This document shows, in pieces, positions 3,001 to 61,239 of a stretch of DNA of 64,000 nt (position 1 is its first letter; every line of letters starts with the position of its first letter). The notes below the pieces were generated by a model. It was not told the DNA's origin. It worked only from the letters and a program-made list of their open reading frames with translations, and ran no database searches. Made by a program: the position numbers and the translations under genes. This DNA is from Salvelinus alpinus. Taxonomy: Eukaryota; Chordata; Actinopteri; Salmoniformes; Salmonidae. Where the stretch lies: the NCBI RefSeq assembly GCF_045679555.1, contig NC_092122.1, positions 13,941,506-14,005,505 of the forward strand. The letters are read 5' to 3'.

Positions 3001-3970
3001 CAGTCAAGACAGCTAGACAAGCTGATTATGAACTTCGGTCGAATATTCTCTCCATTCCCAGGACAAACAGATGTCCTGTTCCACCATATCCACACTGAAC
3101 CCGGCAAGAAGGTGCATATCCGCCCTTACAGGATTCCTGAGGCTCGCCGAGTCATCGCTAAGAACGAGGTAAGGGAGATGTTGAGGATGGGTGTGATCGA
3201 GCCATCGACGAGTGAGTGGTCCAGTCCCATAGTCCTGGTCCCCAAATCCGATGGTAGTATGAGACTCTGCAACGATTTTAGGGCCGTGAATGCCATCTCT
3301 ACATTCGATGCGTATCCCATGCCCCGCGTGGATGAACTCTTGGAGCGCTTAGGAAAGGCCAAGTTCATCACCACCCTGGATTTGACGAAGGGATATTGGC
3401 AAGTGCCGGTGGCTCCGGAGGATCGCCCAAAGACTGCCTTCGCCACACCAGAGGGGCTTTTCCAGTATGTGAGGATGCCCTTCGGACTGCATGGTGCCGC
3501 TGCAACTTTCCAACGCCTCATGGATGCCATTCTACGGCCCCATCAAGAGTATGCAGCGGCGTACATAGACGATGTGGTTATCCACAGCGAGGACTGGGAT
3601 AGTCACCTCCTGCGATTACGGGCGCTGCTCGTGAGTTTGGAAGCCACAGGGTTGACGGCCAATCCAAATAAATGCTGCCTGGGTCTGTCCGAAGCGGAAT
3701 ACCTGGGGTACACCGGGAATGGGAAAATACGCCCACAGGCAGAGAAGACCAGGGCAATTCGGGACTGGCCGCGACCCCGGACCAAGCGGGACGTTCGGGC
3801 CTTCTTAGGGATAACGGGATATTATCGCCGTTTTATCCCGGGATATGCAACCATTGCCAATCCCCTCACAAACCTCATCAAGAAAAACTTGCCAAACCAG
3901 GTAGAGTGGAAAGACGAGACGGAAGAGGCCTTTCAATCGCTAAAAGATGGCCTGTGTTCTGATCCCGTCC
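1..3970 (+). mobile_element. Ty3/gypsy fossil with Gmr1-type gene order
   Basis: An LTR-retrotransposon fossil of the Ty3/gypsy group. Parts in order: a short leader at about 1-150 that may include the end of a 5' LTR and a primer-binding site; a gag-like region at 153-1000 ending in a CCHC zinc knuckle near 890-930; an aspartic-protease-like stretch near 1030-1310; an integrase with HHCC and DDE-type core at about 1830-2900; then reverse transcriptase at about 3050-3960. Integrase placed before reverse transcriptase is the order known from the Gmr1 group of deuterostome Ty3/gypsy elements; usual gypsy elements have the reverse. RNase H and the 3' LTR are not present because the copy ends at a junction with another gypsy element near 3970. 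It is broken: at least two breaks, including loss of the 3' end. The family assignment rests on domain order and motif reading. Confidence 0.75.
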
Positions 3971-17101: not shown

Positions 17102-17371
17102 TAACCCCCCCCTTAAGGTGCGAACTCCGGGCGCACCAGCATAAAGTCTAGGGGAGGGTCTGGGTGGGCGTCTGTCCACGGTGGCGGCTCTGGCGCTGGT
17201 CGTGGTCCCCACCCCACCATAGTCAAACCCCGCTTCCTTGGCCTCCTCCCAATGGCCACCCTCCAAATTAACCCCACCGGACTAAGGGGCAGCACCGGAC
17301 TAAGGGGCAACACCGGACTAAGGGGCAACACCGGAATGAGGGGCAACACCGGAATGAGAGGCAACACCGGA

Positions 17372-17980
17372 CTGAGTGGCGGATCCTGGCTGGCTGGCGG
17401 ATCCTGGCTGGCTGGCGGATCCTGGCTGGCTGGCGGATCCTGGCTGGCTGGCTCTGGCGGATCCTGGCTGGCTGGCTCTGGCGGATCCTGGCTGGCTGGC
17501 TCTGGCGGATCCTGGCTGGCTGGCTCTGGCGGATCCTGGCTGGCTGGCTCTGGCTGGTCCTGGCTGGACGGCTCTGGCTGGTCCTGGCTGGACGGCTCTG
17601 GCTGGTCCTGGCTGGACGGCTCTGGCTGGTCCTGGCTGGACGGCTCTGGCTGGTCCTGGCTGGACGGCTCTGGCTGATCCTGTCTGGCGGAAGGCTCTGG
17701 CTGATCCTGTCTGGCGGACGGCTCTAGCGGCTCCTGTCTGGCGGACGGCTCTAGCGGCTCCTGTCTGGTGGACGGCTCTGAAGGCTCAGGACAGACGGGC
17801 GGCTTTGAAGCCTCAGTACAGACAGGCGGCTTTGAAGGCTCGGGACAGACAGACAGCGCTGGGCAGGCAGACAGTTCAGACAGCGCTGGGCAGGCAGACA
17901 GTTCAGACAGCGCTGGGCAGGCAGACAGTTCAGACAGCGCTGGGCAGGCAGACAGTTCAGACACTGGCTGCGCTGGAGAG
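17372..17980. repeat. Tandem coding-type repeats inside the LTR element
   Basis: Blocks of short tandem units (18-bp, 24-bp and longer periods such as GGCGGATCCTGGCTGGCT, and GACAGCGCTGGGCAGGCA) make up the repetitive middle of the element's minus-strand frame. The periods are multiples of three, so repeat number changes keep the frame. Confidence 0.8.
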
Positions 17981-18754
17981 GAGGAAGGCTCTGACAGCGC
18001 TGGACAGGTGGGAGCAGCTGGAGAGAGAACCCGGAGAGACAGCCTGGTGCGGGGGGCTGCCACCGGTGGACTGGTACGTGGAGGTGGCACCGGAAAAACC
18101 GGACCGTGAAGGAGGACACGCGCTCTTGAGCACCGAGCCTGCCCAACCTTACCAGGTTGAATGGTCCCCGTAGCCCTGCCAGTGCGGCGAGGTGGAATAG
18201 CCCGCACTGGGCTATGCTGGCGAACCGGGGACACCATTTGTAAGGCTGGTGCCATGTATGCCGGCCCGAGGAGACGCACTGGAGGCCAGATGCGTTGGGC
18301 CGGCTTCATGACATCCGGCTCAATGCCCAACCTAGCCCTACCAGTGCGGCGAGGTGGAATAGCCCGCACTGGACTAAGCATGCGTACTGGGGACACCGTG
18401 CGCTTCACCGCATAACACGGTGTCTGACCAGTACGACCCCCTCTCACTCCACGGTAAGCACGGGGAGTTGGCTCAGGTATCCTACCCGGCTTTGCCACAC
18501 TCCGCGTGTGCCCCCCCCAAGAAATGTTTGGGTCTGACTCTCGGGCTCCCAACCGCATCGCTGCGCTGCCTCCTCATACCAGCGCCTCTCTGCCTTCGCT
18601 GCCTCCAACTCCGCCTTGGGACGGCGATATTCCCCTGGCTGAGCCCAGGGTCCTTTGCCGTCCAGGATCTCCTCCCAAGTCCACGAGTCCTGTGTCCTCG
18701 GTCTCTGCTGCTGTCTGTTCCCACTCTGCTTGATCCTTTTTTGGTGGGTGTTTC

Positions 18755-33249: not shown

Positions 33250-36200
33250 ATGGACAAACGAGTCAAAGCGGCTGCCAGTACGGGTAGGGGTTGTTTCTAA
33301 AAGTAACGTTACAGTCTATGCTATTAACTCTGGCTAACGTAAGCTAGAGTAGCTCAAATTCAACATACAGGCAGCCCCAAGTGAACTGTAAAGTAACATA
33401 GCTAACTACATTCGTTTCATGTTAATATCATGTTGGCTTTCTTTCTAAATGTAGCTAGCTATTGCTGCTAAATATAGTAAAACCAAAGATTATAACTCTC
33501 ATCTGTGGTATAGTCTTATCATAATATTTTGTATAGCCTTGATGTTGTAGACGAATATGATTTTTTGTTATGCAACAACCAGTACAGCCTAAATATTTAT
33601 TGGGTCCCTCTTCTTTCCATAGGTCCCCCTCTTCCTCTCTCCTCTTTACGACTATTGGTTTCCCCGCTGCGGCTGATGTATTCATTTGTATGGCATGTGG
33701 TGAATCAACGCAATGTGATGCACTATGGGAAGGTCGAGGAATTTGTGACTGTGGTGACTGAAGCTGTTCCAAAGTTGCTGAGTTACAAACAGAGGGCTCA
33801 ACTCATCCTGGGCCTGAGAGCAAGGGTGAGTGACATGATGTGTGGTTATGGGAGGAGTAGTTGATTATGCTTTGATTGACACATTTATATCAATGCCAGT
33901 AGAAACTATATGTGTGTAAGGAGGGCAGGGAAGTTGCAAGTTTGCTCAATATCGCCATGATTCCCATTAATTAGATGATCTTGGAGATGTTCCGCAACGA
34001 TTGTCCACCTAACCCTCAGGCCATCCAACGTCTCCTGGGAAAGATTAACATCAGTGCATCCGCAGGGGTAAGAATATTTTTCTCTCTCCTGCATACATTC
34101 AAAGGATGTAACAGCTACTCATTTTAATAGCTCAATTCAGATAACCAGATAAGTTATACTTGTATCAAATTATTCACATTCTGTGTTACAGCAGCAAGAT
34201 ATGGAAGTGGAGGAGTCACAGGCTAACTTTGTGGCACTGGTCCAAACCCTGCTGAAAAACCCTTATGAGAGGAAGCACTTCTTCCAGGTTTGACATACTT
34301 TCTCTCTCTCCCTTTCGTCTGACTTGATTTTAGCGCCTCATCATTCAGGTAGGTTCTCTCAGACACTGTCACTCTTTGCTTCCCTGTAGGAGGAGTTCCA
34401 TACACATTATGGCTCCAAGTATGACACAGCACTGCAGGCCCTTGTGGGAGGCTTGGTCCTCAGACTGGAACAACTGCTATCTGTGCCAGATCTCTCCCAG
34501 GTAATGAACTGGTACATGACAAGTCTATAACTAACAGTTCACTGATCATACCTAATTTTGTCATTATTAGATAACAGTTTATGTCAACACATGCCATATT
34601 ATTGTCTTGACCTCACATGCTAAGCCACCCCCCTTTTGCTGATCTTATGTTCTTCCTCTCCTTCTCAGATAGCATCCATTATCAGTGCTGCCCCCTCTGA
34701 CCTGGAGGAGTGTGGACAGTTTGTGTCTGACCCTGAGCACCTGAAGATCCTCCTCCAGCACCAGAACCTGCTAAATAAAATCCAGTTAAACAAAAATGGT
34801 AGGCTTGAAAATAGTCCATAGAAAGCTTTGGAGTCTCTACTTCAATCAGTATCTGTTATCCTCTCTGTGTATGTACAGTAGATTTATAAACAGCTATAAA
34901 AAAAAAACTTTACAAGTTTTATTTTTGACATCGAAAATTAAAAGTACAATGTGGAGAAATCGCTCAGCCATTACCTGGTTGGTAAAATTCTGTAATGTTC
35001 TCCTACTTTCAGTATGTGACAAAAAAAAGCAATTTAAATAATGGCTGTACAATATAAACCACTGTGAAATATATTTTCAATGATCATGAATATAATATTT
35101 TTTGCTGTATGAATTTAGTTTACAAAACCTTAAATAAAAAGATTAAAAAGCTAAACTTAATAGTAGTATTTTTTTTAATTAGCAGAATATCCTTAACTGT
35201 GATGTACTTAAATATATATATTTTTTTTTTCCTCAGTACCTGTCACTTCCTCTGTGGGTGACTGTGTGCTGTCTTCGCTGTCCTTCCGCCTCGCCTGTGG
35301 AATGCCATCAATGGAGCCAGATCTTGACAAGCCATCAGAATCACTAGAAGCCACTCTAAGCCTCATGAACCCTGCCTCCTTCAGTGACTTGGAGGATCTG
35401 GGAATGATGTCAGATGACTCGCCACATGCTGGAGAAGATAGTACTATAGAGAGAGAAGAGGATGCCAGGGATAACGGAAATGGGGTGAAAAATGCAGTGT
35501 GTGACAATGCACTGCCAGAGAGCGTGTCTAGTCCTCAAGGTGTTAGCGGACTAGTGGGAGGGTCACCATCAAAAGGGGCACCAACAGTAAGGAGTATGTT
35601 GCCAACACAGAGACACCAACAGCTTGTATCACTGATGAGTAGTTCCTTCACCAAATCCTCTCCTTTACAGATAGTCAAATTAGTCATCCCTGCCACGGTC
35701 ACCAATGGGAACCAACCGTGTAACCCACCGGTCAAAGTAGCGAGTGTCCACCAGTGGGTCTCCCACATTGCAAGTAACTCGATCTCGCTCCCTTCCTTGC
35801 CACCCCTTCCACAAAACAATGATGTAGATAAGGAGATCCGGTCAGGTGACACATGTCTTGGAAGCAGTGTGGTAATTGGTGGTCAGGAAACAGAAGCCAA
35901 TCTCTTTGAGAAGGCTGTTATCCGAAGGAGATGGGTGCCCAAGCCACAAAGAATAACAGTACCCTCGAAAAGGAGAATTCCTGAGGCAACCATAATTTGC
36001 CAGGAGTGTGGGAAGAGTTTTGTCTATCCGTCTCAGCTGGAAAATCACCTCCGCATTCACACAGGAGAGAAACCTTTCAAGTGCACTGAGTGTGGCAGGG
36101 CCTTCAGGTCCTTAGGAGGTATGACCACTCATATGAAAAATCACTCTGAAGCGCGGCCATTTAAGTGTGATGAGTGTGACAAGGGCTTTCGGAAAAAGGC

Positions 36201-36978
36201 TGACCTGAAGAAGCATCAGCTCATCCACACGGGTGCAAAACCACATAAATGCACCATCTGTGGAAAGGGCTTCAGCCAAGCATTCTATTGCAGAATACAC
36301 ATCCAGTCTCATGCAAGTGAAAATAACTTTCCCTGCACTCATTGTCAGAAGAGATTCCCAACCCAATACAAGCTGTCTGTCCACGAGCGCTGGCACACCA
36401 TGGAGCGCCCGTTCATCTGTGAGCAGTGTGGGATGCGCTTCTTTCATCCCAGTGGGCTGAAGAGGCACATGGGCTATCACATTGGGAACCGCCCGTTCCT
36501 GTGTGCCCAGTGTGGAAAGACTTTTGTTTATGAGTTTGACCTGAAGAAACACCAAAGGGACCATGGCCCCAAGCCCAAGATCCCATGCCCTGTCTGCCAG
36601 AAGGTGTTTGGCAGCAACGGACTCATTAAGGCCCACATGTTTACGCACACCTCTGTAAAACCTTACAGATGTGACATATGTGACAAGACCTTTAAACAGA
36701 GCAGCAGCTTGAGCAGTCACAAACGTCTGCACACAGGCGAACGCCCTTACCACTGTGACATGTGTGGGAAGACATACAAGCTGAATCAGCACCTGAAGGA
36801 GCACATAATTATCCACCACACGACGGAGGGGCACCCCTGTGACCAGTGTGGAAAGGTCTTCAAGTTACCACGTCTTCTAAAGGCGCATGAGCGGTTGCAC
36901 TCAGGAGAGCGATCTGAGCAGACAAGGAAATACAGTCACACCAACCGTCGCAGGAGACATTCCTCCAAAAGGAGTTGA
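33250..36978 (+). CDS. TIN2-N-domain C2H2 zinc-finger protein, copy A
   Basis: Seven exons with GT-AG junctions and consistent phases: 33250-33283, 33623-33825, 33975-34067, 34192-34287, 34390-34500, 34669-34798, 35237-36978; 802 codons. Exons 2-6 (residues about 12-222) form a helical domain that I read as the N-terminal domain of TIN2/TINF2, the shelterin scaffold: RLMYSFVWHVVNQRNVMHYGKVEEFV, LLSYKQRAQLILGLRAR, FHTHYGSKYDTALQALVGGLVLRLEQLL. Exon 7 adds an acidic linker (FSDLEDLGMM), a conserved HQWVSHIAS segment and eleven C2H2 fingers (residues about 475-780) joined by TGEKP-type linkers. The protein is likely a nuclear DNA-binding regulator; targets are unknown. TIN2-like parts take the N-terminal place that KRAB or SCAN holds in mammalian families. 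A short basic serine-rich tail (RRRRHSSKRS) ends it. No damage is seen. First of three tandem copies. Confidence 0.85.
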
Positions 36979-37671
36979 TTTTCTGCACAGTGGCTGGCCT
37001 CCACACACACACTGACTGGGATGCTAGTTTTATTGTTCTGACACAAGTTTAACTTTGTCACAATGCCATGCCATTGGCTGTAATCATGTTCTTGGTTTTT
37101 TTTGTTGTAAACTTGACAATTTTGGACCATAATCCAGGATTCCCTAGACTGAACATTGACAAATGGTAGAATGGCTGGCTTAATTCATGCAGAAACAAAC
37201 ATATGTCCTGTTAGATACCAACAATGAATGATTGTCATTAAAAACATATTTGTTTGTGATGCTTTTTTTTGGATAGGTTGAAATTCCAATGACATAAGAT
37301 GTAAATTGACAGCTACTTACATATCTCTTTTTGAGAGTAGTCAATGATTGCCGGAAGCCTTTACAAAAAAATATGAACAACATTTGGTTTTGGATAAAGG
37401 CAAATAAAGTCATTATTGTGTGCCACTACTCATTTGTTTTGCTGTTTAAGTTGAAAACATTCACAGCAAGGGAAACCAAATGTTTGCTAGAATGGTCCTG
37501 TGCGATTACTTTTTATAATACATTTAAAGATTGTATTAAGCCACAAAAGTTCATTAATAAAGATTAATACTCATCCAGATATATAACGTTATACAGAAAA
37601 AATATGAAATTCATGTTTTTACCTAAAATGTAATTTCAAGAAAAGAGCAGGATTCACTTGCGGCTCTTATT

Positions 37672-37695
37672 CCAGCACGGTAGGTGGCGGTAATG
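37672..37695 (+). promoter_or_regulatory. Shared promoter motif, copy B
   Basis: CCAGCACGG followed by TAGGTGGCGGTAATG, about 216 bp upstream of the copy B start codon. It is conserved in copy C and at 22.3 kb; not found at the same place in copy A. The core resembles CTCF-type sites. Confidence 0.5.
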
Positions 37696-37887
37696 TTGTT
37701 ATGCTACCACTCTTATTGTTAATAGTCCGGTCAAAACTCTTTTCTGGATTTGGTTCCGTTTCCCTCTGTCCCGTTGTTGTCACCATTTTCACACAAAAAA
37801 TCGTCAATGAGTTGATAGCTATCTATCATGCTAGTTACCTTTACTGTTAGATTTCTGCTTATCGTACATATTTGGTAACATTCCGGC

Positions 37888-40800
37888 ATGGACAAACGAG
37901 TCAAGAAGAGTACAGCCAGTACGGGTAACGTTAGGTTACATTATATGACACTTACTAGCCATGTATTAGCAATCTAACCCATTTTACAAATGTGAATCTG
38001 GCTAGACCCAAGTCACTGCAGTGCAGAGCGCTAGCGACTATCTTCAATGGGTAGCTAAGTATAAAGCTAATGTCCGTTTCGGCTTGCCTTCTAAATTAAG
38101 TTTGCTAGCTAGTTAGCCATGTTGCTGGAGGTATTTGTTGCTAAAGAAAGAGGATGAAGCCACACAAGCTAACATGTTGTTCTATCGTCTTGCTATAGGT
38201 CCCCCACTTCCTCTCTCCTCTTTGCGACTATTGGTTTCCCCGCTGCGGCTGATGTATTCATTTGTATGGCATGTGGTGAATCAACGCAATGTGATGCACT
38301 ATGGGAAGGTCGAGGAATTTGTAACTGTGGTGACTGAAGCTGTTCCAAAGTTGCTGAGTTACAAACAGAGGGCTCAACTCATCCTGGGCCTGAGAGCAAG
38401 GGTGAGTGACATGTTGTGTGGTCATGGGAGGGGTGGTTTTGAAACTGTATTAGAAAAATCATATACAATTTTGTCCCATTATTTTAGATGATCTTGGAGT
38501 TGTTCCGCAACGACCCACCCAACCTTCAGGACATCCAACGTCTCCTGGAAAAGATGAACATCTTGGGGGTAAGAATATTTTTCCTGTGTGAAAGTGTGGA
38601 AATTCCGCCCCATACCAGTGAACAACTCACATGTAACACAACATATTCAAGAATGACTGTCGATACCATTAAACCAGAAAAACCAAGGCTGGAGCGACAT
38701 CACTTAAAAGAGGGTCAAATATGTGCTGTACTCTGATTTGAAAATAGCAGTGCAGTGTACAGATCTGAGGGGACTGGATAAGTGTAAACGACAAGTGTTA
38801 GCACCTTCCAGTGGGGTTGCGGGAGCTTTCTGCCATCTGTCTTGCTTTGCTGTCACCCATCTGATTCCTTAGATCTGCAAATAGGGTAAGAGATAAAAGT
38901 TGTTCTCAGGCTAGACTTGTGACTTCTACAGACCCTGTCACCCATACACTCAATACCCCTCTTTTTAGTAACATGTAATTCTGATGACGGAAGTGGCTGT
39001 ACTTTGTATCAAATGATTCCCAATTTGTGTTACAGCAGCAAGATGCAGAAGTGGATGAGTCACAGGCTAACTTTGTGGCGCTGGTCCAAACCCTGCTGAA
39101 AAACCCTTATGAGAGGAAGCACTTCTTCCAGGTTCGGCAGGCTTCCTCCCTTTCCTCTCACACTGTCCACTTTGTCATGTCATAGACACTGATTTTAACT
39201 TTTTCTTTCCTTCCCTGTAGGAGGAGTTCCATACACATTATGGCTCCAAGTATGACACAGCACTGCAGGCCCTTGTGGGAGGCTTGGTCCTCAGACTGGA
39301 ACGACTGCTATCTGTGCCAGATCTCTCCCAGGTAATAAACTGGTAAACAACAAGTCTATAACTAACAATTTACCAGTCATATCTAATGTTGACATTGTTA
39401 GACAACTATATACACTACCGTTCAAAAATTTGGGGTCACTTAGTAATGTCCTTGTTTTCCATGAAAACATACATGAAATGAGTTGCAAAATGAATAGGAA
39501 ATATAGTCAAGATGTTTACAAGGTTATAAATGAGGATTTTTAATTGAAATAATAATTTTGTCCTTTTAAACTTTGCTTTCGTCAAAGAATCCTCCATTTG
39601 CAGCAATTACAGCCAGACCTTTGGCATTCTAGTTGTCAATTTTTTTAGGTAATCTGAATAGATTTCACCCTATGCTTCCTGTAGCACCTCCCAAAAGTTG
39701 GATTGGCTTGATGGGCACTTCTTACGTACCATACGGTCAAGCTGCTCCCACAATAGCTCAATAGGGTTGAGATGGGTAACCTTTATTTAACTAGGCAAGA
39801 GATCCAGTGACTGTGATGGCCACTCCATTATAGACAGAATACCAGCTGACTGCTTCTTCCCTAAATAGTTTTTGCATAGTTTGGAGCTATGCGTTTGGTC
39901 ATTGTCCTGGTGTAGGAGGAAATTGGCTACAATTAAGCGCCGTTCACAGGGTATGGCATGGTGTTGCAAAATGGAGTGATAGCCTTCCTTCTTCAAGATC
40001 CCTTTTACCCTGTACACATCTCCCACTTTACCACCACCAAAGCAGCCCCAGACCATCACATTGCCTCCACCATGCTTGACAGATGGCGTCAAGCACTCTT
40101 CCAGCATCTTTTAATTTTTTATGCATCTCACGAATGTTCTTCTTTGTGATCCAAACACCTCAAATGTAGATTTGTCTGTCCATAACATTTTTTTTCCAAT
40201 CTTCCTCTGTCCAGTGTCTGTGTTCGTTTGCCCATCTTAATCTTTTATTTTGATTGGCCAGTCTGAGATATGTCTTTTTCTTTGCGACTCTGCCTAGAAA
40301 GCCAGCATCCTGGAGTCGCCTCTTCACTGTTGACGTTGAGACTGGTGTTTTGCGGGTACTATTTAATGAAGCTGCCAGTTGAGGACTTGTGAGGCGTCTG
40401 GTTCTCAAACTGGACACTAATGTACTTGTCCTCTTGCTCAGTTGTGCACCGGGGCCTCCCACTCCTCTTTCTATTCTGGTTAGAGACAGTTTGTTCTGTT
40501 CTGTGAAGGGAGTAGTACACAGCGTTGTACGAGATCTTCAGTGTCTTGGCAATTTCTCACATGGAATAGCCTTAATTTCTCAGAACAAGAATAGACTAAT
40601 GAGTTTCAGAAGAAAGTTATTTGTTTATTGCCATTTTGAGCCTGTAATCGAACCCACAAATGCTGATGCTCCAGATATTCAACTAGTCTAAAGAAGGCCA
40701 GTTTTATTGCTTCTTTAATCAGAGCAACAGTTTTCAGCTGTGCTAACATAATTGCAAAAGGTTTTTCTAATGATCAATTAGCCTTTTAAAATGATAAACT

Positions 40801-43255
40801 TGGAATAGCTAACACAACGTGCCATTGGAACACAGGAGTGATGGTTGCTGTTAATGTACCTCTGTACGCCTACGTAGATATTCCTTTAAAAATCATCAGT
40901 TTCCAGCTACAATAGTCATTTACAATGTCTACACTGTATTTCTGATCAATTTTATGTTATTTTAATGGACAAAAAATCTGCTTTTCTTTAAAAAACAAGG
41001 ACATTTCTAAGTGACCCTAAACTTTTGACCGTTAGTATACGTGCCAACACATGCCATAATATTTTTCATCCTGCGCACTCTAAGAAACCCCCTGGTTGCT
41101 GATCTTAGCTTCTACCTCTCCTTCTCAGATAGCATCCATTATCAGTGCTGCCCCCTCTGACCTGGAGGAGTGTGGACAGTCTGTGTCTGACCCTGAGCAC
41201 CTGAAGATCCTCCTCCAGCACCAGAACCTGCTAAATAAGATTCAGTTGGGTAGGGCTACTTTAATTAGTATATCTTCTCCATGTTAATGTTCAGTGGAAT
41301 TATCAACAGCTGAACAAAGAACAATGTAATTTTCCCTTTTTGTCAAACTGCCATGGTTCAATCTATTGATAACTTTGAACCAGCTGTATTTACAGGAATT
41401 TGAATTATTTTGAAATGGTATTAATCGCATGCCCAATACCTTCAAATTCAAACAATCAGAATGTGGTGTAATATAAAATACTCATAGATTTTTCTGTATT
41501 TGTCCCTTTTTCTCAGTACCTGTCACGTCCTCTGTAGGGGACTGTGTGCTGTCCTCGCTGTCTTTCCGCTTAACCTGTGGAATGCAGTCCATGCAGACAG
41601 ATTTTGACGAACCAGCGGAATCATTAGAAGCCGCTCTAAGCATCATGAGCCCTGCCTCCTTCAGTGACTTGGAGGATCTGGGAATGATGTCAGTTGAATC
41701 GGAACACGCTGGAGCAGTAACTACTGTGGAGAGAGAAGAGCAGAATGCCAGGGATAACGGAGGTCTGGTGAAAAATTCAGTACTCGACAGTGAAGAAGAC
41801 AATGCACTGTCAAAGAACGACATAGTCTCACCTACTCCTCAAAGTGTAAGCAGGCCAGTGGGAGGGGCACCAACAGTAGAGAGCATGCTGCCAACAGAGA
41901 GACACAAAGAGCTTGCAACACTGATGAATACTTTCATCACCGAAGCCTCTCCTTCACATATTGTCACCCCTGCCACGGTCACCAATGGGAACCAGCCAGA
42001 TAACCAGCCGGTCGAGCTAGCGAGTGTCCACCAGTGGGTCTCCCACATTGCAAGTAACTCGATTTCGCTCCCTTCCTTGCCACCCCTTCCACAAAACAAT
42101 GATGTAGACAAGGAGATCCGGTCAGGTGACACGTGTCTTGGAAGCAGTGTGGAAATTGGGGGTCAGGAAACAGAAGCCAATCTCTTTGAGAGGGCTGTTA
42201 TCCGAAGGAGACTGCCCAAGCCACAAAGAATAACGGTACCCTCGAAGAGGAAAATCCCTGAGGCAACCATCATTTGCCAGGAGTGTGGAAAGAGTTTTGT
42301 GTATTCGTCTCAGCTGGAAAATCACCTCCGCATTCACACAGGAGAGAAACCTTTCAAATGCACTGAGTGTGGCAGGGCCTTCAGGTCCTTAGGAGGCATG
42401 ACCACTCATATGAAAAATCACTCTGAAGCTCGGCCATTTAAGTGTGAAAAGTGTGACAAGGGCTTTCGGAAAAAGGCTGACTTGAAGAAGCATCAGCCCA
42501 TCCATATGGGTGCGAAACCACATAAATGCACCATCTGCGGAAAGGGCTTCACCCAAGCATTCTATTGCAGAATACACATCCAGTCTCATGCAAGTGAAAA
42601 TAACTTTCCCTGCACCCATTGTCAGAAGAGATTCCCAACCCAATACAAGCTGTCTGTCCACGAGCGCTGGCACACCATGGAGCGACCGTTCATCTGTGAG
42701 CAGTGTGGGATGCGCTTCTTTCATCCCAGTGGGCTGAAGAGGCACATGGGCTATCACATTGGGAACCGCCCGTTCCTGTGTGCCCAGTGTGGAAAGACTT
42801 TTGTTTATGAGTTTGACCTGAAGAAACACCAAAGGGACCATGGCCCCAAGCCCAAGATCCCATGCCCTGTCTGCCAGAAAGTGTTTGGCAGCAACGGACT
42901 CATTAAGGCCCACATGTTTACGCACACCTCTGTAAAACCTTACAGATGTGACATATGTGACAAGACCTTTAAACAGAGCAGCAGCTTGAGCAGTCACAAA
43001 CGTCTGCACACGGGCGAGCGCCCTTACCACTGCGACATGTGTGGGAAGACATACAAGCTGAATCAGCACCTGAAGGAGCACATAATTATCCACCACACGG
43101 CGGAGGGGCACCCCTGTGACCAGTGTGGAAAGGTCTTCAAGTTACCACGTCTTCTGAAGGCGCATGAGCGGTTGCACTCAGGAGAGCGATCTGAGCAGAC
43201 AAGGAAATACAGTCACACCAGCCGTCGCAGGAGAAATTCCTCCAAAATGAGTTGA
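37888..43255 (+). CDS. TIN2-N-domain C2H2 zinc-finger protein, copy B
   Basis: Seven exons: 37888-37924, 38199-38401, 38488-38568, 39036-39131, 39221-39331, 41129-41249, 41517-43255; 795 codons, no stop or frame change. The start MDKRVKKSTASTG and exons 2-6 encode the same TIN2-like domain as copy A; exon 3 lacks the four-codon extension of A (NILG against NISASAG). Exon 7 has its own variant of the acidic linker (MQSMQTDFDEPAESLEAALSIMSP) and eleven C2H2 fingers almost identical to copy A, keeping all predicted DNA-contact residues. Exons 1-6 and their introns are instead nearly identical to copy C. A Tc1-like transposon (39413-41035) lengthens intron 5 and is absent from A and C. Expression and function are unknown; the intact frame suggests it is used. 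Confidence 0.85.
39413..41035 (-). mobile_element. Tc1-like element in intron 5 of copy B
   Basis: A 1.62-kb element with inverted ends: left CACTACCGTTCAAAAATTTG, right end complementary to ACGGTCAAAAGTTTAGGGTC. It inserted at a TA. Minus-strand transposase pieces are readable: 40462-40160 (RTSTLVSSLRTRRLTSPQLA, VSTSTVKRRLQDAGFLGRVA) and 40107-39787 (SVKHGGGNVMVWGCFGGG, KEGYHSILQHHAIP, MEWPSQSLDLLP). Several stops and frame changes make it inactive. Copy C has an empty site at the matching intron position, so insertion followed the B/C split. Confidence 0.85.
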
Positions 43256-43756
43256 TTTACTGCACAGTGGCTGCCCTCCACAGACACCGACTGGGATGCT
43301 AGTTTTAATATCCTGACAAATTGCCATTAGCTGTAATAATATTTCTAATTTTTAGTTGTAAACTTTAGAATTTGGACCAGAATTCAGGATTCCCTTAATA
43401 GACTGAACATTGAAAAATAGTATAATGTCTGGCTTAATTAATGCAGCAACAAGCATATCTCCTGTTGGATAACAATTAATGATTGTGTCATTAAAACATT
43501 TGTTTGTGATGCTTTTCTTTTTTTGGATAGGTTATTGAAATTCCAATGACACAAGATGTAAATTGATAGCTACTCACTTATTTCTCTTTTTGAGAGTAGT
43601 CAATGATTGCAGGGAGCCTTTACAAAAAATAAGCACAACATTTGGTGTTGGATAAAGGCAAATAAAGTCACAATTGTGTGCCACTACTTTCTTGTTTTGC
43701 TATTTTATTCACAGCATGGGAAACCAAATGTATGCTAGAAAGGTACTGTGTGATGA

Positions 43757-43815
43757 CATTTTATAACATTTACATTTAAGTCATTTAGCAGAGCAATATA
43801 ATACATTTAAAGTGT
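43757..43815. repeat. Short interspersed repeat fragment
   Basis: ACATTTACATTTAAGTCATT followed by TAGCAGAG is the start of a widespread teleost repeat. Only about 50 bp remain, in the 3' flank of copy B. Confidence 0.4.
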
Positions 43816-43957
43816 TCATTAAACCACAAAAGTTAATTAAGCCACAAAATAAAGATTCATACTCAACCAAATATATATACAGAAAAATTATGGAATTCGT
43901 GTTTTTACCTAAAATGTAATTCCAAGAAAAGAGCAGGTTTCAATTGTGGCTCTTATT

Positions 43958-43981
43958 CCAGCACGATAGGTGGCGGTAATG
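43958..43981 (+). promoter_or_regulatory. Shared promoter motif, copy C
   Basis: CCAGCACGA followed by TAGGTGGCGGTAATG, 211 bp upstream of the copy C start codon and in the same place as in copy B. Confidence 0.5.
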
Positions 43982-44168
43982 ATGTTAAGCTGCCAAAATT
44001 ATTGTTAAAGTCCGGTCAAAACTCTGTTCTGGTTTTGGTTCCTTTTCCATCTGTTGTTGTCGCCATTTTCATAATTTTTCGTCAGTGAGTTGATGATAGC
44101 TATCTATCATGCTAGTTACCTTTACTGTTAGATTTCTGCTTATAGTACATATTTGGTAACATTCCGGC

Positions 44169-47100
44169 ATGGACAAACGAGTCAAGAAGAGTACAGCCAG
44201 TACGGGTAACGTTAGGTTACATTATATGACACTTACTAGCCATGTATTAGCAATCTAACCCATTTTACAAATGTGAACCTAGCTAGACCCAAGTCACTGC
44301 AGTGCGGAGCGCTAGCGACTATCTTCAATGGGTAGCTAAGTATAAAGCTAATGTCCGTTTCGGCTTGCCTTCTAAATTAAGTTTGCTAGCTAGTTAGCCA
44401 TGTTGCTGGAGGTATTTGTTGCTAAAGAAAGAGGATGAAGCCACACAAGCTAACATGTTGTTCTATCGTCTTGCTATAGGTCCCCCACTTCCTCTCTCCT
44501 CTTTACGACTATTGGTTTCCCCGCTGCGGCTGATGTATTCATTTGTATGGCATGTGGTGAATCAACGCAATGTGATGCACTATGGGAAGGTCGAGGAATT
44601 TGTAACTGTAGTGACTGAAGCTGTTCCAAAGTTGCTGAGTTACAAACAGAGGGCTCAACTCATCCTAGGCCTGAGAGCAAGGGTGAGTGACATGATGTGT
44701 GGTCATGGGAGGGGTGGTTTTGAAACTGTATTAGAAAAATCATATACAATTTTTGTCCCATTATTTTAGATGATCTTGGAGTTGTTCCGCAAGGACCCAC
44801 CCAACCTTCAGGACATCCAACGTCTCCTGGAAAAGATGAACATCTTGGGGGTAAGAATATTTCTCCTGTGTGGAAATTCCACCCCATACCGTGGCACAAA
44901 CTCACAACACACCTGTAACACAGCATTCAAAAATATTGCTGTCAATACCATTCTCGGACGACTACTTAAAAGAAGTAACATTTGCATGTTGGTCTGGTTT
45001 GAAAATAGCCTTTAGCTCTGCAGTGCACAAATTTGAGGGGACTGGATAAGTGTAAGCGACAAGTGTTAACACCTTCCAGTGGGGTTGCGGGAGCTTTCTG
45101 CCATCTGTCTTGCTTTGCTGTCACCTATCTGATTCCTTAGATCTGCAAATAGGGTAAGAGATAAAAGTTGTTCTCAGGCTAGACTTGTGACTTCTACAGA
45201 CCCTGTCACCCATACACTCAATACCCCTCTTTTTAGTAACATGTAATTCTGATGACGGAAGTGGCTGTACTTTGTATCAAATGATTCCCAATTTGTGTTA
45301 CAGCAGCAAGATGCAGAAGTGGATGAGTCACAGGCTAACTTTGTGGCGCTGGTCCAAACCCTGCTGAAAAACCCTTATGAGAGGAAGCACTTCTTCCAGG
45401 TTCGGCAGGCTTCCTCCCTTTCCTCTCACACTGTCCACTTTGTCATGTCATAGACACTGATTTTAACTTTTTCTTTCCTTCCCTGTAGGAGGAGTTCCAT
45501 ACACATTATGGCTCCAAGTATGACACAGCACTGCAGGCCCTTGTGGGAGGCTTGGTCCTCAGACTGGAACGACTGCTATCTGTGCCAGATCTCTCCCAGG
45601 TAATGAACTGGTAAACAACAAGTCTATAACTATCAATTCACCAATTATATCTAATGTTGACATTGTTAGACAATGTATATGTGTCAACACATGCCATAAT
45701 ATTTTTCATCCTTTCATCCTAAGAAACTCCCTGGTTGCTGATCTTAGCTTTTACCTCTCCTTCTCAGATAGCATCCATTATCAGTGCTGCCCCCTCTGAC
45801 CTGGAGGAGTGTGGACAGTCTGTGTCTGATCCTGAGCACCTGAAGATCCTCCTCCAGCACCAGAACCTGCTAAATAAGATTCTGTTTGGTAGGCTTACTT
45901 TAATTATATATTCTCCTTCCTGTTAATGTTAAGTAGAATTATCAACAGATAAACAAAGAACAATGTATTTTTCCCCAAACTGTCATGGATCACTTTGAAC
46001 TAGCTGTATTTACAGGATTGTGAAATAGTTTTTCAATGGTATTAATGTAAACATGCTCATTCCTAGGCTTTCAAATTTAACCAATCAGAATGTCATTTTT
46101 CTATATTTGTTCCTTTTCCTCAGTACCTGTCACGTCTTCTGTGGGTGACTGTGTGCTGTCTTCGCTGTCCTTCCGCCTCGCCTGTGGAATGCCATCAATG
46201 GAGCCAGATCTTGACAAGCCATCAGAATCACTAGAAGCCACTCTAAGCCTCATGAACCCTGCCTCCTTCAGTGACTTGGAGGATCTGGGAATTATGTCAG
46301 ATGACTCGCCACATGCTGGAGAAGATAGTACTGTGGAGAGAGAAGAGGATGCAGTGCGTGGCGGTGAAGAAGAGAATTCACTGCCAGAGAGCGCCGTGGT
46401 CTGCTCTTGTCCTCAAGGTGTTAGCGGACTGGTGGGAGGGGCACCATCAAAAGGGGCACCAACAGTAAGGAGTATGTTGCAAACGATGAGACAGCAACAG
46501 CTTGTATCACAGATGAGTATTTCCATCACTGAAGCCTCTCCTTCACAGATAGTCATCCCTGCCACGGATAACCAGCCGATCGAGCTAACGAATGTCGACC
46601 AGTGGGTCTCCCATATTGCCAGTTACAATTTATCGCTCCATTCCTTGCCACCCCTTCCACAAAATGATAATTTGGACAAGGAGATGGAGTCGGCCGACAC
46701 AGGTCTCGGAAGCAGTGTGGTGATCGGGGGTCAGGAAACAGAGGTCGATCTCTTTGAGAGTTCCATTATCCAGAGGAAGAGGGTGCAAAAGCCACTACGA
46801 GTAGCGTGCTCTAAAAAGAGAAACCCTGCAACCAACTCCTGCCAAGAGTGTGGGAAGCGTTTTCTGTCTCGGGGACGGCTGGAGGATCACCTCCGCATAC
46901 ACACCGGAGAGAAACCTTTCAAGTGCATCGATTGTAGCAGGTTCTTCAGGACGTTGGCACTCCTGACCAACCATATGAAAATTCACTCTGACGTGCGGCC
47001 CTTTAGCTGCGATGAGTGCGGCAAGTGCTTTCGGAGAAAGGTTGGCCTTCAGAATCACCATCGCGTCCACACGGATGCAAGACCATACAAATGCACCATC

Positions 47101-47817
47101 TGTGGAAAGGGTTTCACGCAAGTACAGTACTGCAAAAGACACATGGATTGTCATACAAGTGAGAATACCTATTTCTGTACTCATTGTCCGAAGAGTTTCC
47201 CAACCCAATTCCAGCTGTCCGCCCACCAGCGCTGGCACACCATGGACCGCCCGTACGCCTGTGAGCAGTGTGGGTTGCGCTTCTTTATGCCAAGCTTGTT
47301 AAAGAGACACATGGGCTATCACATCGGGAACCGCCAGTTCCTGTGTGCCCAGTGCGGAAGGACCTTTGTCTATGAGTTTGACCTAAAGAGACACCAAAAA
47401 GACCATGACCCCAGTCCCAAACTTCCCTGCCCCGTCTGCCAGAGGTTGTTTGGCAACAACAGCCTACTCCAGGCCCACATACGCAGGCACTCTTCAGAGA
47501 AACCTTACAGATGCGACATATGCGACAAGACCTTTAAAGACAGCGGGGGCCTCCGCATACACAAGCGGGGGCTGCACTCGAACGAACGCCCTTACAGCTG
47601 CGACGAGTGTGGGAAGACCTACAAACTACACACGCACCTGAGGGAGCACAAGTTTAAACATACGGGGGAGGGCCACACCTGTGGCCAGTGTGGAAAAGCC
47701 TTCAGGTACCTGCGTCTCCTGAAGGCGCACGAGCGGTCGCACTCCGAGCCATCTGAGCTCACACGGCGAAACAGTCACACCAGCCGTCGCAGGAGACATT
47801 CCTCCAAAAGGAGTTGA
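44169..47817 (+). CDS. TIN2-N-domain C2H2 zinc-finger protein, copy C
   Basis: Seven exons: 44169-44205, 44480-44682, 44770-44850, 45304-45399, 45489-45599, 45768-45888, 46124-47817; 780 codons, intact. Exons 1-6 give the TIN2-like domain and match copy B almost base for base, introns included. The first part of exon 7 (MPSMEPDLDKPSESLEATLS) matches copy A instead. The eleven C2H2 fingers (residues about 454-758) are clearly diverged from A and B; for example finger 1 helix SRGRLEDH against YPSQLENH, and finger 9 DSGGLRIH against QSSSLSSH, so DNA specificity should differ. Finger 9 has four residues between its two histidines. The protein ends in the same RRRRHSSKRS tail as copy A. A nuclear transcription factor role is inferred from the fingers only. 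Confidence 0.85.
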
Positions 47818-55673: not shown

Positions 55674-56669
55674 CTAGGAGGCTAGTTTCTGGATGCGGTA
55701 GAGCACAATCTGAGTGGTGAGCTCCAGCACGTTGGGCATCTCCCTCACTTGGTCCATGCTCACCCCCACGTCCAGCAGCCCCTTGAACCGGCCCACCAGG
55801 GTGGGCACTGAGTAGTACAGTACAGCAGGGCAGCGGAGGACTATCTCCCGGAGCTCATCTTCAGAGCACACGAGCACCCCTTGGGTGTAGTCCAGAGCCT
55901 GTTGCATGGCCTCAGGCTGCAGCTCTGCGATGGAGGCCCTGAGGCTGGAGACCAGGACCAGGAGCTCCTCTGTGGTGAAGCCCTTTTCCCTCAAGAAGCC
56001 CAGACTGTCCCTCCACGCCTCAGCCGGCCGCATCAGGATGTAAGGGTTCTGGCTGAGCAACTTTTGGAACCATAAGCGCAGGTTTCCCTCATCCCCTCCC
56101 AGGTCCAAGTAAGTCTCTCGCAGCATGTGGATGACCTCCTGGTTGCTCTCCACAGGCCGGCTGAAGCTCTGGGGGGCGCTGGCCATCAGCTTCCCGATGA
56201 TGCGCTTGCTGAGGCGCAGGCTCTGGAGATAGCGTATGTTGTCACGCTGGTTGGTGTGGTGCGTGAGCGTGAAGAAGGAGGCAGGGAACTTCTCAATGAT
56301 GCCCACCAGCTCACGCCGGTTGGGGCATACGGAGGACCAGAGGTCCCGCTGAGCTGCCACGTCCTCGGGCCGACACAGGATAGCCTCGGGGTGGGTCTCC
56401 AGCACACGGGCAATGGAAGCAGTGTCAGCGCCCATGTCCCGCAGCAGGTCCGCCGTCTCGTACACGTACACAGAGTTCTCTGACAGCACCCATCCCTTGA
56501 ACTTACGCACTTTACGGATGTCCACCGATAGGTCATAAAGGGAGTCGACAGTTTGCTGGTTCTCTGGCCGCTTGTTGGCGAGGGTAGAGGAAGAGAAGCC
56601 CATATGAGGGGTTAAGACGCTCCTCTTCTGGCAATAGGCGCACAGGAAGGCAGTGGTGGCACGGAGCAT
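55674..56669 (-). CDS. mterf2: Mitochondrial transcription termination factor 2, with early stop
   Basis: One minus-strand coding exon. I place the start at 56669 (MLRATTAFLCAYCQKRS, a plausible mitochondrial presequence) because an acceptor (TGTCTTATACAG) ends just upstream at about 56699. The text follows human MTERF2 closely: TVDSLYDLSVDIRKVRKFKGWVL, LGGDEGNLRLWFQKLLSQNPYIL, LRCPAVLYYSVPTLVGRFKGLL, REMPNVLELTTQIVLYRIQKL. The mTERF repeats form a nucleic-acid-binding solenoid used in mitochondrial DNA expression. A TAG at 55674-55676 ends the frame after 331 codons; beyond it 46 sense codons continue in the same frame to a stop at 55533-55535 and still match the family end (GYDVRGGSLD ... 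RPLFNPVAPL). The stop may be an allele, a sequence error or recent damage in one duplicated copy. Without it the length would be 378, near the human 385. Confidence 0.85.
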   Translation of the reverse strand: MLRATTAFLCAYCQKRSVLTPHMGFSSSTLANKRPENQQTVDSLYDLSVDIRKVRKFKGWVLSENSVYVYETADLLRDMGADTASIARVLETHPEAILCRPEDVAAQRDLWSSVCPNRRELVGIIEKFPASFFTLTHHTNQRDNIRYLQSLRLSKRIIGKLMASAPQSFSRPVESNQEVIHMLRETYLDLGGDEGNLRLWFQKLLSQNPYILMRPAEAWRDSLGFLREKGFTTEELLVLVSSLRASIAELQPEAMQQALDYTQGVLVCSEDELREIVLRCPAVLYYSVPTLVGRFKGLLDVGVSMDQVREMPNVLELTTQIVLYRIQKLAS

Positions 56670-56744
56670 TGTTAAGGCACTAAAGTACAGACGACCTGTA
56701 TAAGACAAAAACACACACTGAGCAGTTACATCACACAAGACCAC

Positions 56745-57720
56745 TACGTCCTTTGTCAGTATTGTTTACCAGTTAGTCCTATACTACTGTTCTATGCTTT
56801 CAGTACATAGACTGTTTTCTCCTGCTCTAAATTAGACCATTAATTAACAGTAAGATACATTTTATTTAGGATGATCACATAACAAACATTGCTTTCCTCA
56901 CTGCAAAGCCTGTCAAAATCAAACAATGTTGAACTGATCTATTGAGGGCAACATCAGTAAATGTAAGTATATTTGGCCAGTAGATATGAGTAGTGTTGGT
57001 GTGGGAACACGATGTACTAAACGTGTTACTGGGTGGTGGAGAATGTGTACTTAAACTCATAACCAATGCGCCCTCTATATTACCGCCGGTAGCAAGTCAC
57101 TATAGGTCTATAATTATCGAGTTCGTAAAAGGTCTATGCTGCTGTAACAACTGAGTCTTTCAGCACATGGGACAGAGACCACCTGAATCAACTATAGTAA
57201 TTCAAATACAGGCTATACATTCTATATTGTAAATAAAACCAGTTGTTTACCAGTTTATTGTCCAGAGGAATACACAAGTTGACGCTGGAAGTTGTTCAGG
57301 CATTTGTACCATTATGAAAGATTTTAAACGCCCTCTGCTCACGTGTTTCATAACGCCTGTGATTGGCTCTGTTCCCGTCCGCCTATATTGCTGTTGTGCT
57401 GCGCAGATTATTAAATTGTGGGAACTCCATCACTATGAATTACCAATGTAATTAACAATAATATGGTGGGTGCTTATATTTGTCCTATTTCACACATGTA
57501 GGCTACAAGTGTGTATTATACGCATGTATAATACGCACGCATATCCCAACTCTCCCTGAGACACCCTCAGAGAGTGGGGTCACGGTGGGGCCGGCGTTAT
57601 GGGCGGCATTTGGGGGGTCTGGTCCGCCCTAATTTACCTCGTTGCCCGTCCAAATACAAGTTTGAAATATGCATAATTTATTTGACGGAGATGCGCGCCA
57701 ACAGAAAGACGCATCAATCT
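56745..57720. other. Upstream region of mterf2
   Basis: Probably holds the mterf2 promoter and a non-coding first exon; none could be fixed. A GATTGGCTCTG (CCAAT-box type) site is at 57361, and a CTCF-like core (TAGAGGGCGC on minus) at about 57068-57078. No other gene is evident. Confidence 0.4.
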
Positions 57721-57887: not shown

Positions 57888-58370
57888 TTCTTCGGTGATA
57901 TAGTTTCAGAAGAGAGGAAGAGGCGAGGGCTCACTCTCGTTCAATTCTGTCCAGTATAAGCCCAATGCTTTTCTATGGGAATAATATGCAGACCTAAACT
58001 TGTCGCCTGCCTTCCTGCCTTTGGGACAAAAACTCATTGTTAGGGCGGAGACATGAGCATCTCGTCATTATATGCAGATATCTGGTGTCAGCCTCTTGCG
58101 AATTGGAAAGGAAAGTTGGCGGGTGTACAGTGCACTGTTAAGATGCTGGATTGCCCTAAAGTAAATTGATGTTCCGCCAAAATTATATAATTATCCTGTC
58201 TAAATAAAATCATTCAAAATAATTCACCGGTGAGGATTAGTTAGCCACATAGGATAATTAGCTTCTTCAAAAATGTTTTGCTGTGGTTGTTTTAAATCAC
58301 CCGTGTGTTTGAGAAGCCCGCGATTTGGGTAGTGGGCGTGGCAATAGGTCTAGCTGATTGAGTTGCGACT

Positions 58371-58554
58371 GTCAATGAACATAAGAATGAGAGGGTTGTG
58401 GCGAAGATATGGCGTTGTCAGTGAACATAAGAATGAGAGGGTTGTGGCGAAGATATGGCGCTGTCAGTGAACATAAGAATGAGAGGGTTGTGGCGAAGAT
58501 ATGGCGCTGTCAGTGAACATAAGAATGAGAGGGTAGTGGCGAAGATATGGCGCG
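58371..58554. repeat. 46-bp tandem repeat, four units
   Basis: Four head-to-tail 46-bp units beginning GTCARTGAACATAAGAATGA, at 58371, 58417, 58463 and 58509, with only two or three differences among them. GAAGATATGGCG recurs at each unit end. Confidence 0.92.
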
Positions 58555-61239
58555 TTCCTCTCTAGAATGCATGTATATGTAGGAACGTGTCCATTTGGCA
58601 ATTTCTGATTGTCTTACAGCACTATTTTTTTCTTCGCCTCACACGTCTGCGAAGTCTGTTTTTTAAACATCCATTGCGAATGATAGTTCCTCAGTATTTG
58701 AAAAAATCTTTCCAACACTCCCGGCCTCGAAAATGCAAAATATCATGATCTGATGATCCCATATATCCAGTGTAAACGTCATAAACAGCTTTCTATCCGG
58801 AGCTCACTGGCGCAGGAAACTCTAGGGCCCGGAATAGCTAGTTGATACAATGTTTCACTGTTTTATTCCCGCTAGAGACAGCTTCGGTCCGGACCAAGTG
58901 ATGATTTGACGTTGTACTTCACTAGCAATAGCTCAAATCAAGACCGATAGAAAGGAGGCAGACAGGCGGATGAGATAGATTAATGTTATTGAAAGAACCG
59001 GGATTTTCATCAGGATATTTTCTACTGTTTTTATTTGTCGGTTTTAGGCCTATGCATTTTACTTAATTGAGGCCTACTGCTGCATCTGAGTTATACTTAT
59101 ACTGTCATTTCTTTACATTTTCAATGGATCAGAGTGTATCAATGTGTCCATCTGGCAGAGGCTAGTGCTCTCCGCATAGTTGAATTTTAATTTTTAGATT
59201 TGTATAATTTTACTTCCGATTTTTATGATTAACCACGTGACAATGATTTTGAGAAAACAAAACGTTATTATTGAAATTAAACCGTTCCAAGAAAATGTGC
59301 GTATAAAAATAATCATAACTGCCACGCAGATCGGGAGAAATTGTATAGTAACTGTACTTACTGCAGAGTAGGGCTAGCCAAGGCATGATCTATCTAGTAA
59401 CTTAGGCTGGTATTTGGTTTTAAGGTACAGTTATGATAATGGAGATTTGTAATTGAGATTGGACTAAAATGTGGATTGGATGCTTAGATGTATCCATAGA
59501 CTGTCTTATTTTTGCATAGGGTCAATTAAACATGAAAAGAAAGGGAGAGATATCAAACTTCTTTTTAAAGAAGCACAAACAGGCAGATCAGGTGCAAACA
59601 GACCCCAGCCCTTGCATCACCACTGGACCCCAGAGCAGCTCCCTACCTGAGGCTAGTCAGAGTCAGTGTGGTCAGACTTCACAAGGACCCAGTCTACCAC
59701 CACCAGGTCAGAGCATCTACCACGCAGTCAGTCACATGCCCAGTTCAGAGTTTAAATTTAGCTTCAGCTTGTAATAGATGATTTTGTCAGATTAAGCCTC
59801 ACTTTAAAATGTTGGTTGTTGATTCATGTGTGTTCTTGTTTTGTTGGCTGTGGCATTTTTATTGTGATTATACACTAATGGTTCTTGTGTTATTTTAATG
59901 TAATAGATGTATCAAGGGATGACACAGAAACCTCTGGCTCTGAGCCAGACAGTGAGCCAGAGCTGCCAGGAGATGTCATTGAGCCCCTCCCAACTGCATC
60001 AAGCACCAGATATGCTGTTCCAAAAGGACCCAGTGGTAGGCCAGGCCTATACTTTAAACTACACATTTTATTTAGCAGCTGTTAGTATCTAATCTTGTGA
60101 ATCTCTTAATTCTACATTTCCATAGAGATATGACACATTATTTAACGTGTATTTCCAACATTTCAAGATCCAGAGAAGAGGGTCCTGTACAGCCGTGTTT
60201 GAAAACATTTCCCAGAACTCAGCATGGTACTAGGAAAATGGCTTTCAACAGCTCCTGGTATAAGGACAATTCATGACTGGAATATTCTGTAAGTCAAGAT
60301 AACGACTTATTGTTGGCGCTGTTTAAAGATTCTGGATTTAAGCTCCATTCGAAGGCAGAGTATCATATCAATGCTATGTATGCTTGGAATCAACACAAAA
60401 GCGCTAGTGACAGCAACTCATCAATGTTAGATGTCATAAATGAGGACTCGAAAAAGAAAGTGGAGGAAAACTGTACTTGCATTAAAACAATTGCAGATGT
60501 GCTCCTATTAACTGCCACTGAAAATATAGCGCAGTCATCGAGAGTCTGATGACTCTCACAACAAGGGTAATTTTGACCCTCTCATAGAGAAAAGGATGAA
60601 TGCATGTGGCAATGCAAAGTACACAAGCCACCAAACCCTCTCATAGAGAAAAGGATGAATGCATGTGGCAATGCAAAGTACACAAGCCACCAAATCCAGA
60701 ACGAAGTTCTTGAGGGCTTAGCTGAGATGGTAAAAGTGAAATAATAAGAGAAGTAAAAGATAGTTACGTTTTTAGTGTAAATGCAGATGAAACCAAAGAT
60801 AATATATTTTTTTACAAATGTCTTTAGTTGTGAGGTACTATTACAACGGGGCCATACACAAAATCTTTTTACACTTTCAGTCAGCTGAAAGCTTAGATGC
60901 AGCAGGTCTCACAAAAATGATCATTGATTGCCTTGAAAAACATGGTCTGGACTACAGAAATAATCTTGTGGGGCAAGGCTGTGACGCTGCATCCGTCATG
61001 AGCGGAAAGCATTCTGGTGTGTCTGCACGGATTAAAAACAGTGCAAGATTTGCATTTTATGTGCACTGTAATGCACATTGTTTGAATTTGGTTCTTGTCG
61101 ATGCTGTAGAATCAGTGCCTGAGGCAGTTCACTTTTTTGCTCTCCTGCAGAAGCTTTATGACGGTGTATCTGGCTTGTACGTTCATCTCAAGTGACTTAC
61201 AGTTCAGAAAGAGCTCCTGCCTTTTTCTATTCTCTTTTA

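Follow-up and report, generated by a model that had tools for sequence, protein, structure and literature searches.

Three tandem Salvelinus alpinus genes predicted to join a diverged TIN2-like domain to eleven C2H2 zinc fingers

In tetrapods, zinc-finger families headed by a KRAB or SCAN domain form tandem clusters in which one common head precedes long C2H2 arrays that diverge at their contact residues, and SCAN also occurs together with Myb_DNA-bind_4 in proteins of the ZSCAN20/29 type. A similar arrangement is described here for three adjoining genes, designated c1, c2 and c3, in a window of 64,000 nucleotides of Salvelinus alpinus DNA (C37:13941506-14005505, the whole stretch that was analysed), although their head domain is unrelated to KRAB or SCAN and matches TINF2_N, the N-terminal domain of the shelterin protein TIN2. 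As a finger family with a head the triplet is ordinary; the identity of the head is unusual. Other fish systems include the FiNZ genes, unique to cyprinids according to the text of PMC10547256, and zinc-finger genes with KRAB-like heads in ray-finned fish (PMC11603059). The FiNZ genes likewise form a large family in which a fish head is followed by a C2H2 array; however, their head is described as 28 amino acids (aa) long, encoded by one exon and with no known relative (PMC10547256), whereas the window head spans about 200 aa and exons 2-6 and is a TIN2 homologue by sequence. The KRAB-like genes share with the triplet a conserved N-terminal domain on fish finger proteins, but this head, as presented in PMC11603059, is KRAB-like. 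A term search of the main texts of these two papers on fish finger families returned neither TINF2 nor TIN2, no paper on a fusion of TINF2_N with zinc fingers was found in the open literature searched (most subscription papers and all preprints lying outside it), and the text of a trout paper places tinf2 in a telomere gene-ontology list (PMC10376541). A TIN2-related head that has at least 60 first-exon matches in a single genome is a further concrete candidate among the head domains of large fish finger families. If the reading set out below is true, a telomere-protein domain would have been recruited into general gene regulation.

The reading that we prefer, with some reserve, is that the three genes, all intact, belong to a large family of regulators that bind DNA at specific sequences and dock a partner through their head. 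The eleven C2H2 fingers would read a DNA site, alike in c1 and c2 and different in c3, while the TIN2-like head, filling the slot held by KRAB or SCAN in tetrapod families, most likely offers all members the same docking surface, through which a protein partner is brought to this site. The output may be repression or another form of regulation. Tandem duplication probably enlarged the family, with unequal crossing-over and local conversion between genes also at work, and a chromosome-scale duplication would then have copied the triplet.

The preliminary description of the window had proposed three undamaged tandem genes of seven in-phase exons with eleven fingers each, and the gene models bear this out. 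The genes lie in tandem on the + strand, their spliced products measure 802, 795 and 780 aa, and each has seven exons at agreeing coordinates, GT-AG at every intron, no internal stop, and the same intron phases (1,0,0,0,0,1). Eleven C2H2 fingers with intact ligands were counted in each protein as a tandem array. The linker that precedes them in exon 7 (254, 253 and 239 aa in c1, c2 and c3) had been called acidic, which is correct in a mild sense and no further (D+E 28-35 against K+R 16-22). A tblastn search with the three proteins (E 1e-3) revealed no additional copy within the window. The features of the triplet are as follows.

33250..36978, + strand: gene c1 (802 aa), exons 33250-33283, 33623-33825, 33975-34067, 34192-34287, 34390-34500, 34669-34798 and 35237-36978, GT-AG introns, open frame
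33623..34798, + strand: c1 exons 2-6, TINF2_N head, Pfam PF14973 positions 1-149/149, E 2.2e-52
35237..36978, + strand: c1 exon 7, mildly acidic linker and 11 C2H2 fingers
37888..43255, + strand: gene c2 (795 aa), exons 37888-37924, 38199-38401, 38488-38568, 39036-39131, 39221-39331, 41129-41249 and 41517-43255, apparently chimeric (5' part c3-like, 3' part c1-like)
38199..41249, + strand: c2 exons 2-6, TINF2_N head, Pfam E 1.5e-49, PDB 5xyf_A E 2.1e-10
41517..43255, + strand: c2 exon 7, linker and 11 fingers, contact residues as in c1 (0/44 changed)
44169..47817, + strand: gene c3 (780 aa), exons 44169-44205, 44480-44682, 44770-44850, 45304-45399, 45489-45599, 45768-45888 and 46124-47817
44480..45888, + strand: c3 exons 2-6, TINF2_N head, Pfam E 1.6e-49
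46124..47817, + strand: c3 exon 7, linker and 11 fingers, 28/44 contact residues unlike c1

The relation of the head to TIN2, which had first been proposed from residue patterns, was confirmed by profile and structure-database searches. With hmmscan, the heads of c1, c2 and c3 scored 177.8, 168.6 and 168.5 bits against TINF2_N over all 149 profile positions, above the curated cut-off of 29.4 bits, and the aligned part of human TIN2 scored 191.1 bits on the same profile; this search, proposed beforehand, was strongly positive in all three copies (E 2.2e-52 to 1.6e-49). When the c2 head was compared with all PDB chains (phmmer), the sole match up to E 10 was 5xyf_A, human TIN2, which was again the sole match of a profile built from the three heads (E 4e-11). 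On these matches, the window head is a diverged homologue of the N-terminal TRFH-like domain of TIN2 (TINF2; PDB 5xyf, PF14973), to which it corresponds across the full Pfam profile. It differs from TIN2 in that c2 and the human protein are 28% identical over 128 aligned positions, in a Gly-Gly pair at the positions of F152 and E153, in the absence of F/YxLxP and in the eleven fingers that follow. An NCBIfam scan matched nothing relevant, and none of 30 pattern matches in viral contigs was a relative. Neither KRAB nor SCAN appeared up to E 1 among the best 25 matches listed for the three heads, for the c1 linker and for exon 7 in c1 and c3.

That exons 1-6 and exon 7 form a single gene is supported indirectly, by agreeing phases, an early stop and codons that look constrained. 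Left unspliced, exon 6 would reach a stop after 7, 12 and 12 codons in the three copies. In the 22 codons of exon 7 that lie upstream of its first in-frame Met, synonymous and nonsynonymous codon changes stand at 6:1 (c1-c2), 2:0 (c1-c3) and 6:1 (c2-c3), and because these changes are mostly synonymous, translation most likely starts upstream of the stretch and runs through it.

The fingers of c3 have moved away from those of the other two copies, mostly where contact with DNA is expected. Contact positions were taken as -1, 2, 3 and 6 (44 per protein) and compared with the other non-ligand finger positions. Between c1 and c3, 28/44 contacts were changed against 46/140 other positions (Fisher p=0.0003), and the c2-c3 comparison, which depends on the former, gave 28/44 against 47/140 (p=0.0004). 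Changes between c1 and c2 numbered 0/44 at contacts and 5/143 elsewhere. The c1-c3 divergence shows released or diversifying change at contacts, positive selection not being proven.

The head is not confined to the window. In the 2.37 Gb assembly (928 contigs), at least 125 exon matches to TINF2_N were found, at least 60 of them to the first domain exon (profile start 1-9), both counts being lower bounds from 150 of 196 candidates scored. The first-exon matches cluster on C11, C37, C3, C7, C22, C26, C30 and other contigs. Tails were read within 10 kb at the best 20 of 57 heads outside the window (L009-L028), together with part of a 21st (L029). Same-strand arrays of 4-15 fingers lie downstream of the head at 16 of the 20 fetched loci; L023 carries two arrays (4 + 13), and the fingers at L009 and L028 are few and scattered or degraded. 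At L024 (C11:31755911-31765910), the head is followed on the same strand by eight Myb/SANT-like stretches in place of fingers, and the three of these that were scanned matched Myb_DNA-bind_4 (E 1.4e-16 to 5e-18); the pairing resembles that of the ZSCAN20/29 type, except that the L024 head is TINF2_N and not SCAN. Related Myb-like matches lie near heads on C22, at C26:9.35-9.37 Mb and at C29:40.03 Mb, judged from positions alone. Myb-like copies also occur at C37:13880651-13891345, where no adjoining TINF2_N was present among the matches listed, while the cluster at C11:31.76 Mb has one; loss of the head from the C37 copies is possible. The expanding finger family with a telomere-scaffold-like head that the preliminary description had imagined is present genome-wide, but it is scattered over many contigs and not merely local, and the fusion of head to fingers holds as the pattern at 16/20 loci, with L024 as a head joined to Myb/SANT-like domains instead. 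A head tree gave support of 57 for all fetched heads except L026 and of 28 and 32 on inner nodes and was not used for branching order; it left out L028 and merged identical rows (L011, L022, L023).

These counts bear on the view that nothing more is involved than an ordinary zinc-finger family of fish, present for a long time in databases with automatic names, whose head has no special role. Pfam already scores the window heads at 169-178 bits, and such fish proteins very probably bear automatic names in databases. However, exon 2 has 0 nonsynonymous against 3-4 synonymous changes in every pair among c1, c2 and c3, and since the seven-exon structure is kept in the trio as well, the head looks constrained; in addition, a DNA-binding tail, of fingers or Myb/SANT-like domains, lies behind 17/20 fetched heads. 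An idle head is on this evidence very improbable.

The whole triplet has a counterpart on C11. The window linker occurs at six genomic places, namely in c1, c2 and c3 and at three sites in C11:31.597-31.608 Mb, where the order is the same and the copies pair as c1-L014, c2-L011 and c3-L010. Contacts changed at 3/44, 1/44 and 0/44 in these pairs, and other finger positions at 0/143, 5/143 and 3/144; finger divergence between window and C11 copies is 0.005-0.017 at nonsynonymous sites (dN) and 0.083-0.116 at synonymous sites (dS). With 0-3/44 contacts differing, the finger contacts have probably changed little since the duplication. Exons 2-7 have open frames in both L010 and L011. Of the six triplet genes, L014 may be degenerating, its frame being broken in exon 3. 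The c1-L014 head values (dN 0.067, dS 0.137) are inflated by this frame break and were left unused, as were those of L014-L011 and L014-L010, the finger figures being unaffected.

Several observations weigh against taking the triplet as intact members of a family of sequence-specific regulators. The c1-c3 dN at contact positions (0.539) is close to dS (0.556), which leaves relaxed constraint as a possible cause of the finger divergence. The finger changes between c1 and L014 all fall at contacts, which speaks against a simple freeze in that pair. In the wider family, the fingers of L016, L017 and L025 lie far from the head, making the join less sure there; the exon 3 break of L014 and the stops in the finger array of L017 indicate that not every member is functional; and the fetched set covers 20 of the 57 heads outside the window and part of a 21st.

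The nature of any docked partner can be approached through TIN2. As reported in the text of PMC8262337, alanine at either F152 or E153 of human TIN2 abolished binding of TPP1 and TRF2. The equivalent pair (positions 154-155 of the 5xyf chain, an offset of 2 that is anchored on the F-E pair itself) is Gly-Gly in c1, c2, c3 and their three C11 copies. Among the 20 fetched loci, the F152 position holds Trp in 16, Cys in one (L027) and Gly in three, and the E153 position Glu in 13, Gln in four and Gly in three, with the combination of Trp and Glu or Gln in 16/20. Human TIN2 A15 aligns with Met in the window trio. The TPP1 residue pair is missing in the trio, for which a telomere partner is therefore less probable than for most fetched relatives, and the natural W-E and G-G variants make the partner question directly testable.

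The docking motif by which TIN2 binds TRFH domains has the form F/Y-x-L-x-P, and [FY]xLxP has no match in the c1, c2 and c3 proteins. Another motif, [GN]-D-x-[ILVF]-[LF]-S-x-L-S, stands directly after the head in the window trio, at 9/20 fetched loci and in L029.

35237-35305, 41517-41585 and 46124-46192, + strand: GDCVLSSLSF motif right after the head, degenerate in relatives

At this site the finger-free locus L026 reads YLLSP, which fits Y-x-L-x-P, while the second finger-free copy, L029, has SILSS; the motif region of L026 had no PDB match up to E 10. No fingers were found within the 10 kb of L026, and its tail recurs at one other place only (L029, C11:54.03 Mb), where none lie within 3.5 kb. 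L026 is also the fetched head closest to human TIN2, with 36% identity over 97 positions (24-32% over 127-128 in the others), its exon 4 being absent from the alignment and its identity resting on fewer columns. The L026/L029 pair is a candidate for the true TIN2, not a proven one. The proteins of the window could still be linked to shelterin, with the head docking TPP1 or TRF2, or the post-head motif docking TRF1, and the fingers carrying shelterin parts to telomeric or internal sites. The sequence homology of the head to TIN2, the Trp and Glu or Gln of most relatives, and the spread of the post-head motif together with its resemblance to F/Y-x-L-x-P in L026 are in keeping with such a link. 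However, the trio carries Gly-Gly where either alanine was disruptive in the human protein, neither the three window proteins nor L029 show the docking motif, and the contact residues have no obvious TTAGGG (GGG/TTA) pattern when judged by eye, on which ground a telomere-reading finger array was considered and set aside. A shelterin link appears quite unlikely, and a telomere role for the trio is not supported.

The sequence of the triplet suggests how it arose. A mosaic scan of a three-way alignment of c1, c2 and c3 in 100-column windows placed c2 nearest c3 in a stretch that begins upstream of exon 1 and takes in intron 6 (83-100 between c2 and c3 in most windows). The value drops to 63-79 near exon 3, a region of poor three-way alignment, although this exon is 98.8% identical when the two are aligned pairwise. 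From about 35740 past the stop, c2 is nearest c1 (89-100 to the end of exon 7 and 79-88 beyond). Gene c2 looks like a chimera left by unequal crossing-over between two genes, one resembling c1 and the other c3. Conversion probably acted too, because in the region 35216-35660 it is c1 that is closest to c3 (88-100). Gene c1 shares 86-99% identity with c2 and c3 in head exons 2-6, 85% in exon 1 and 45-78% in the intervening introns. The c1-c3 dS rises from 0.097 in the head to 0.425 in the fingers (14/161 against 68/205 sites, rounded; p=1.4e-8), and short-tract conversion of the head exons is the likely cause of the low head divergence. A further marker lies within c2.

39410..41040, - strand: Tc1-type transposon inside c2 intron 5, HTH_Tnp_Tc3_2 match in 40160-40537, ends approximate and set by eye

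Intron 5 of c2 with this transposon is common to the C11 copy L011 (92.0% over 1755 aligned bases, with 66 gap columns). Both the chimera and the insertion are most likely older than the C11/C37 duplication. The genome size, the paired blocks and the Tc1-type elements are in keeping with a salmonid.

The likeness of the heads can also be read in functional terms. SCAN is a self-association module, and the TIN2-like head might similarly pair family members as homo- and heterodimers, letting two finger arrays work jointly. Heads of c1 and c3 that are far more alike than their fingers would suit such mixing, and the TRFH domains of TRF1 and TRF2 dimerise, as stated in the text of PMC7072152. However, the match here is TIN2, whose domain binds TPP1 and TRF2 peptides in a ternary complex (PMC8262337), and exon-limited gene conversion would explain the likeness of the heads without function. 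Self-association is considered unlikely, and a head that docks a partner is still preferred.

A broader extension of the partner-docking reading is put forward tentatively and is itself doubtful. Within this fish lineage, a shelterin scaffold domain may have become a general head for DNA-binding proteins (C2H2 and, separately, Myb/SANT-like), as a counterpart of KRAB. Most members would retain the partner pocket of TIN2 and deliver a shared partner, TPP1-like or otherwise, to sites away from telomeres, for instance mobile elements, while the window subfamily would have switched partner (W-E to G-G), with DNA targets near fixed since the chromosome duplication.

Outside the triplet, window positions 129-6683 hold pieces of a Ty3/gypsy-type retroelement, with RVT_1, RNase H and integrase in 760-5892. 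A retroelement gag has been proposed as the origin of SCAN, and the gag-like frame at 129-1307 matches the SCAN domain (E 1.5e-7), in agreement with that proposal. A mitochondrial transcription factor-like gene lies on the - strand at 55674-56765, where an open frame encodes 363 aa with a match to mTERF (E 1.5e-21). Tandem repeats occur at 17113-18573 (24/72-base, within a long - strand open frame), 58369-58553 (46-base x4) and 60576-60694 (59-base x2).

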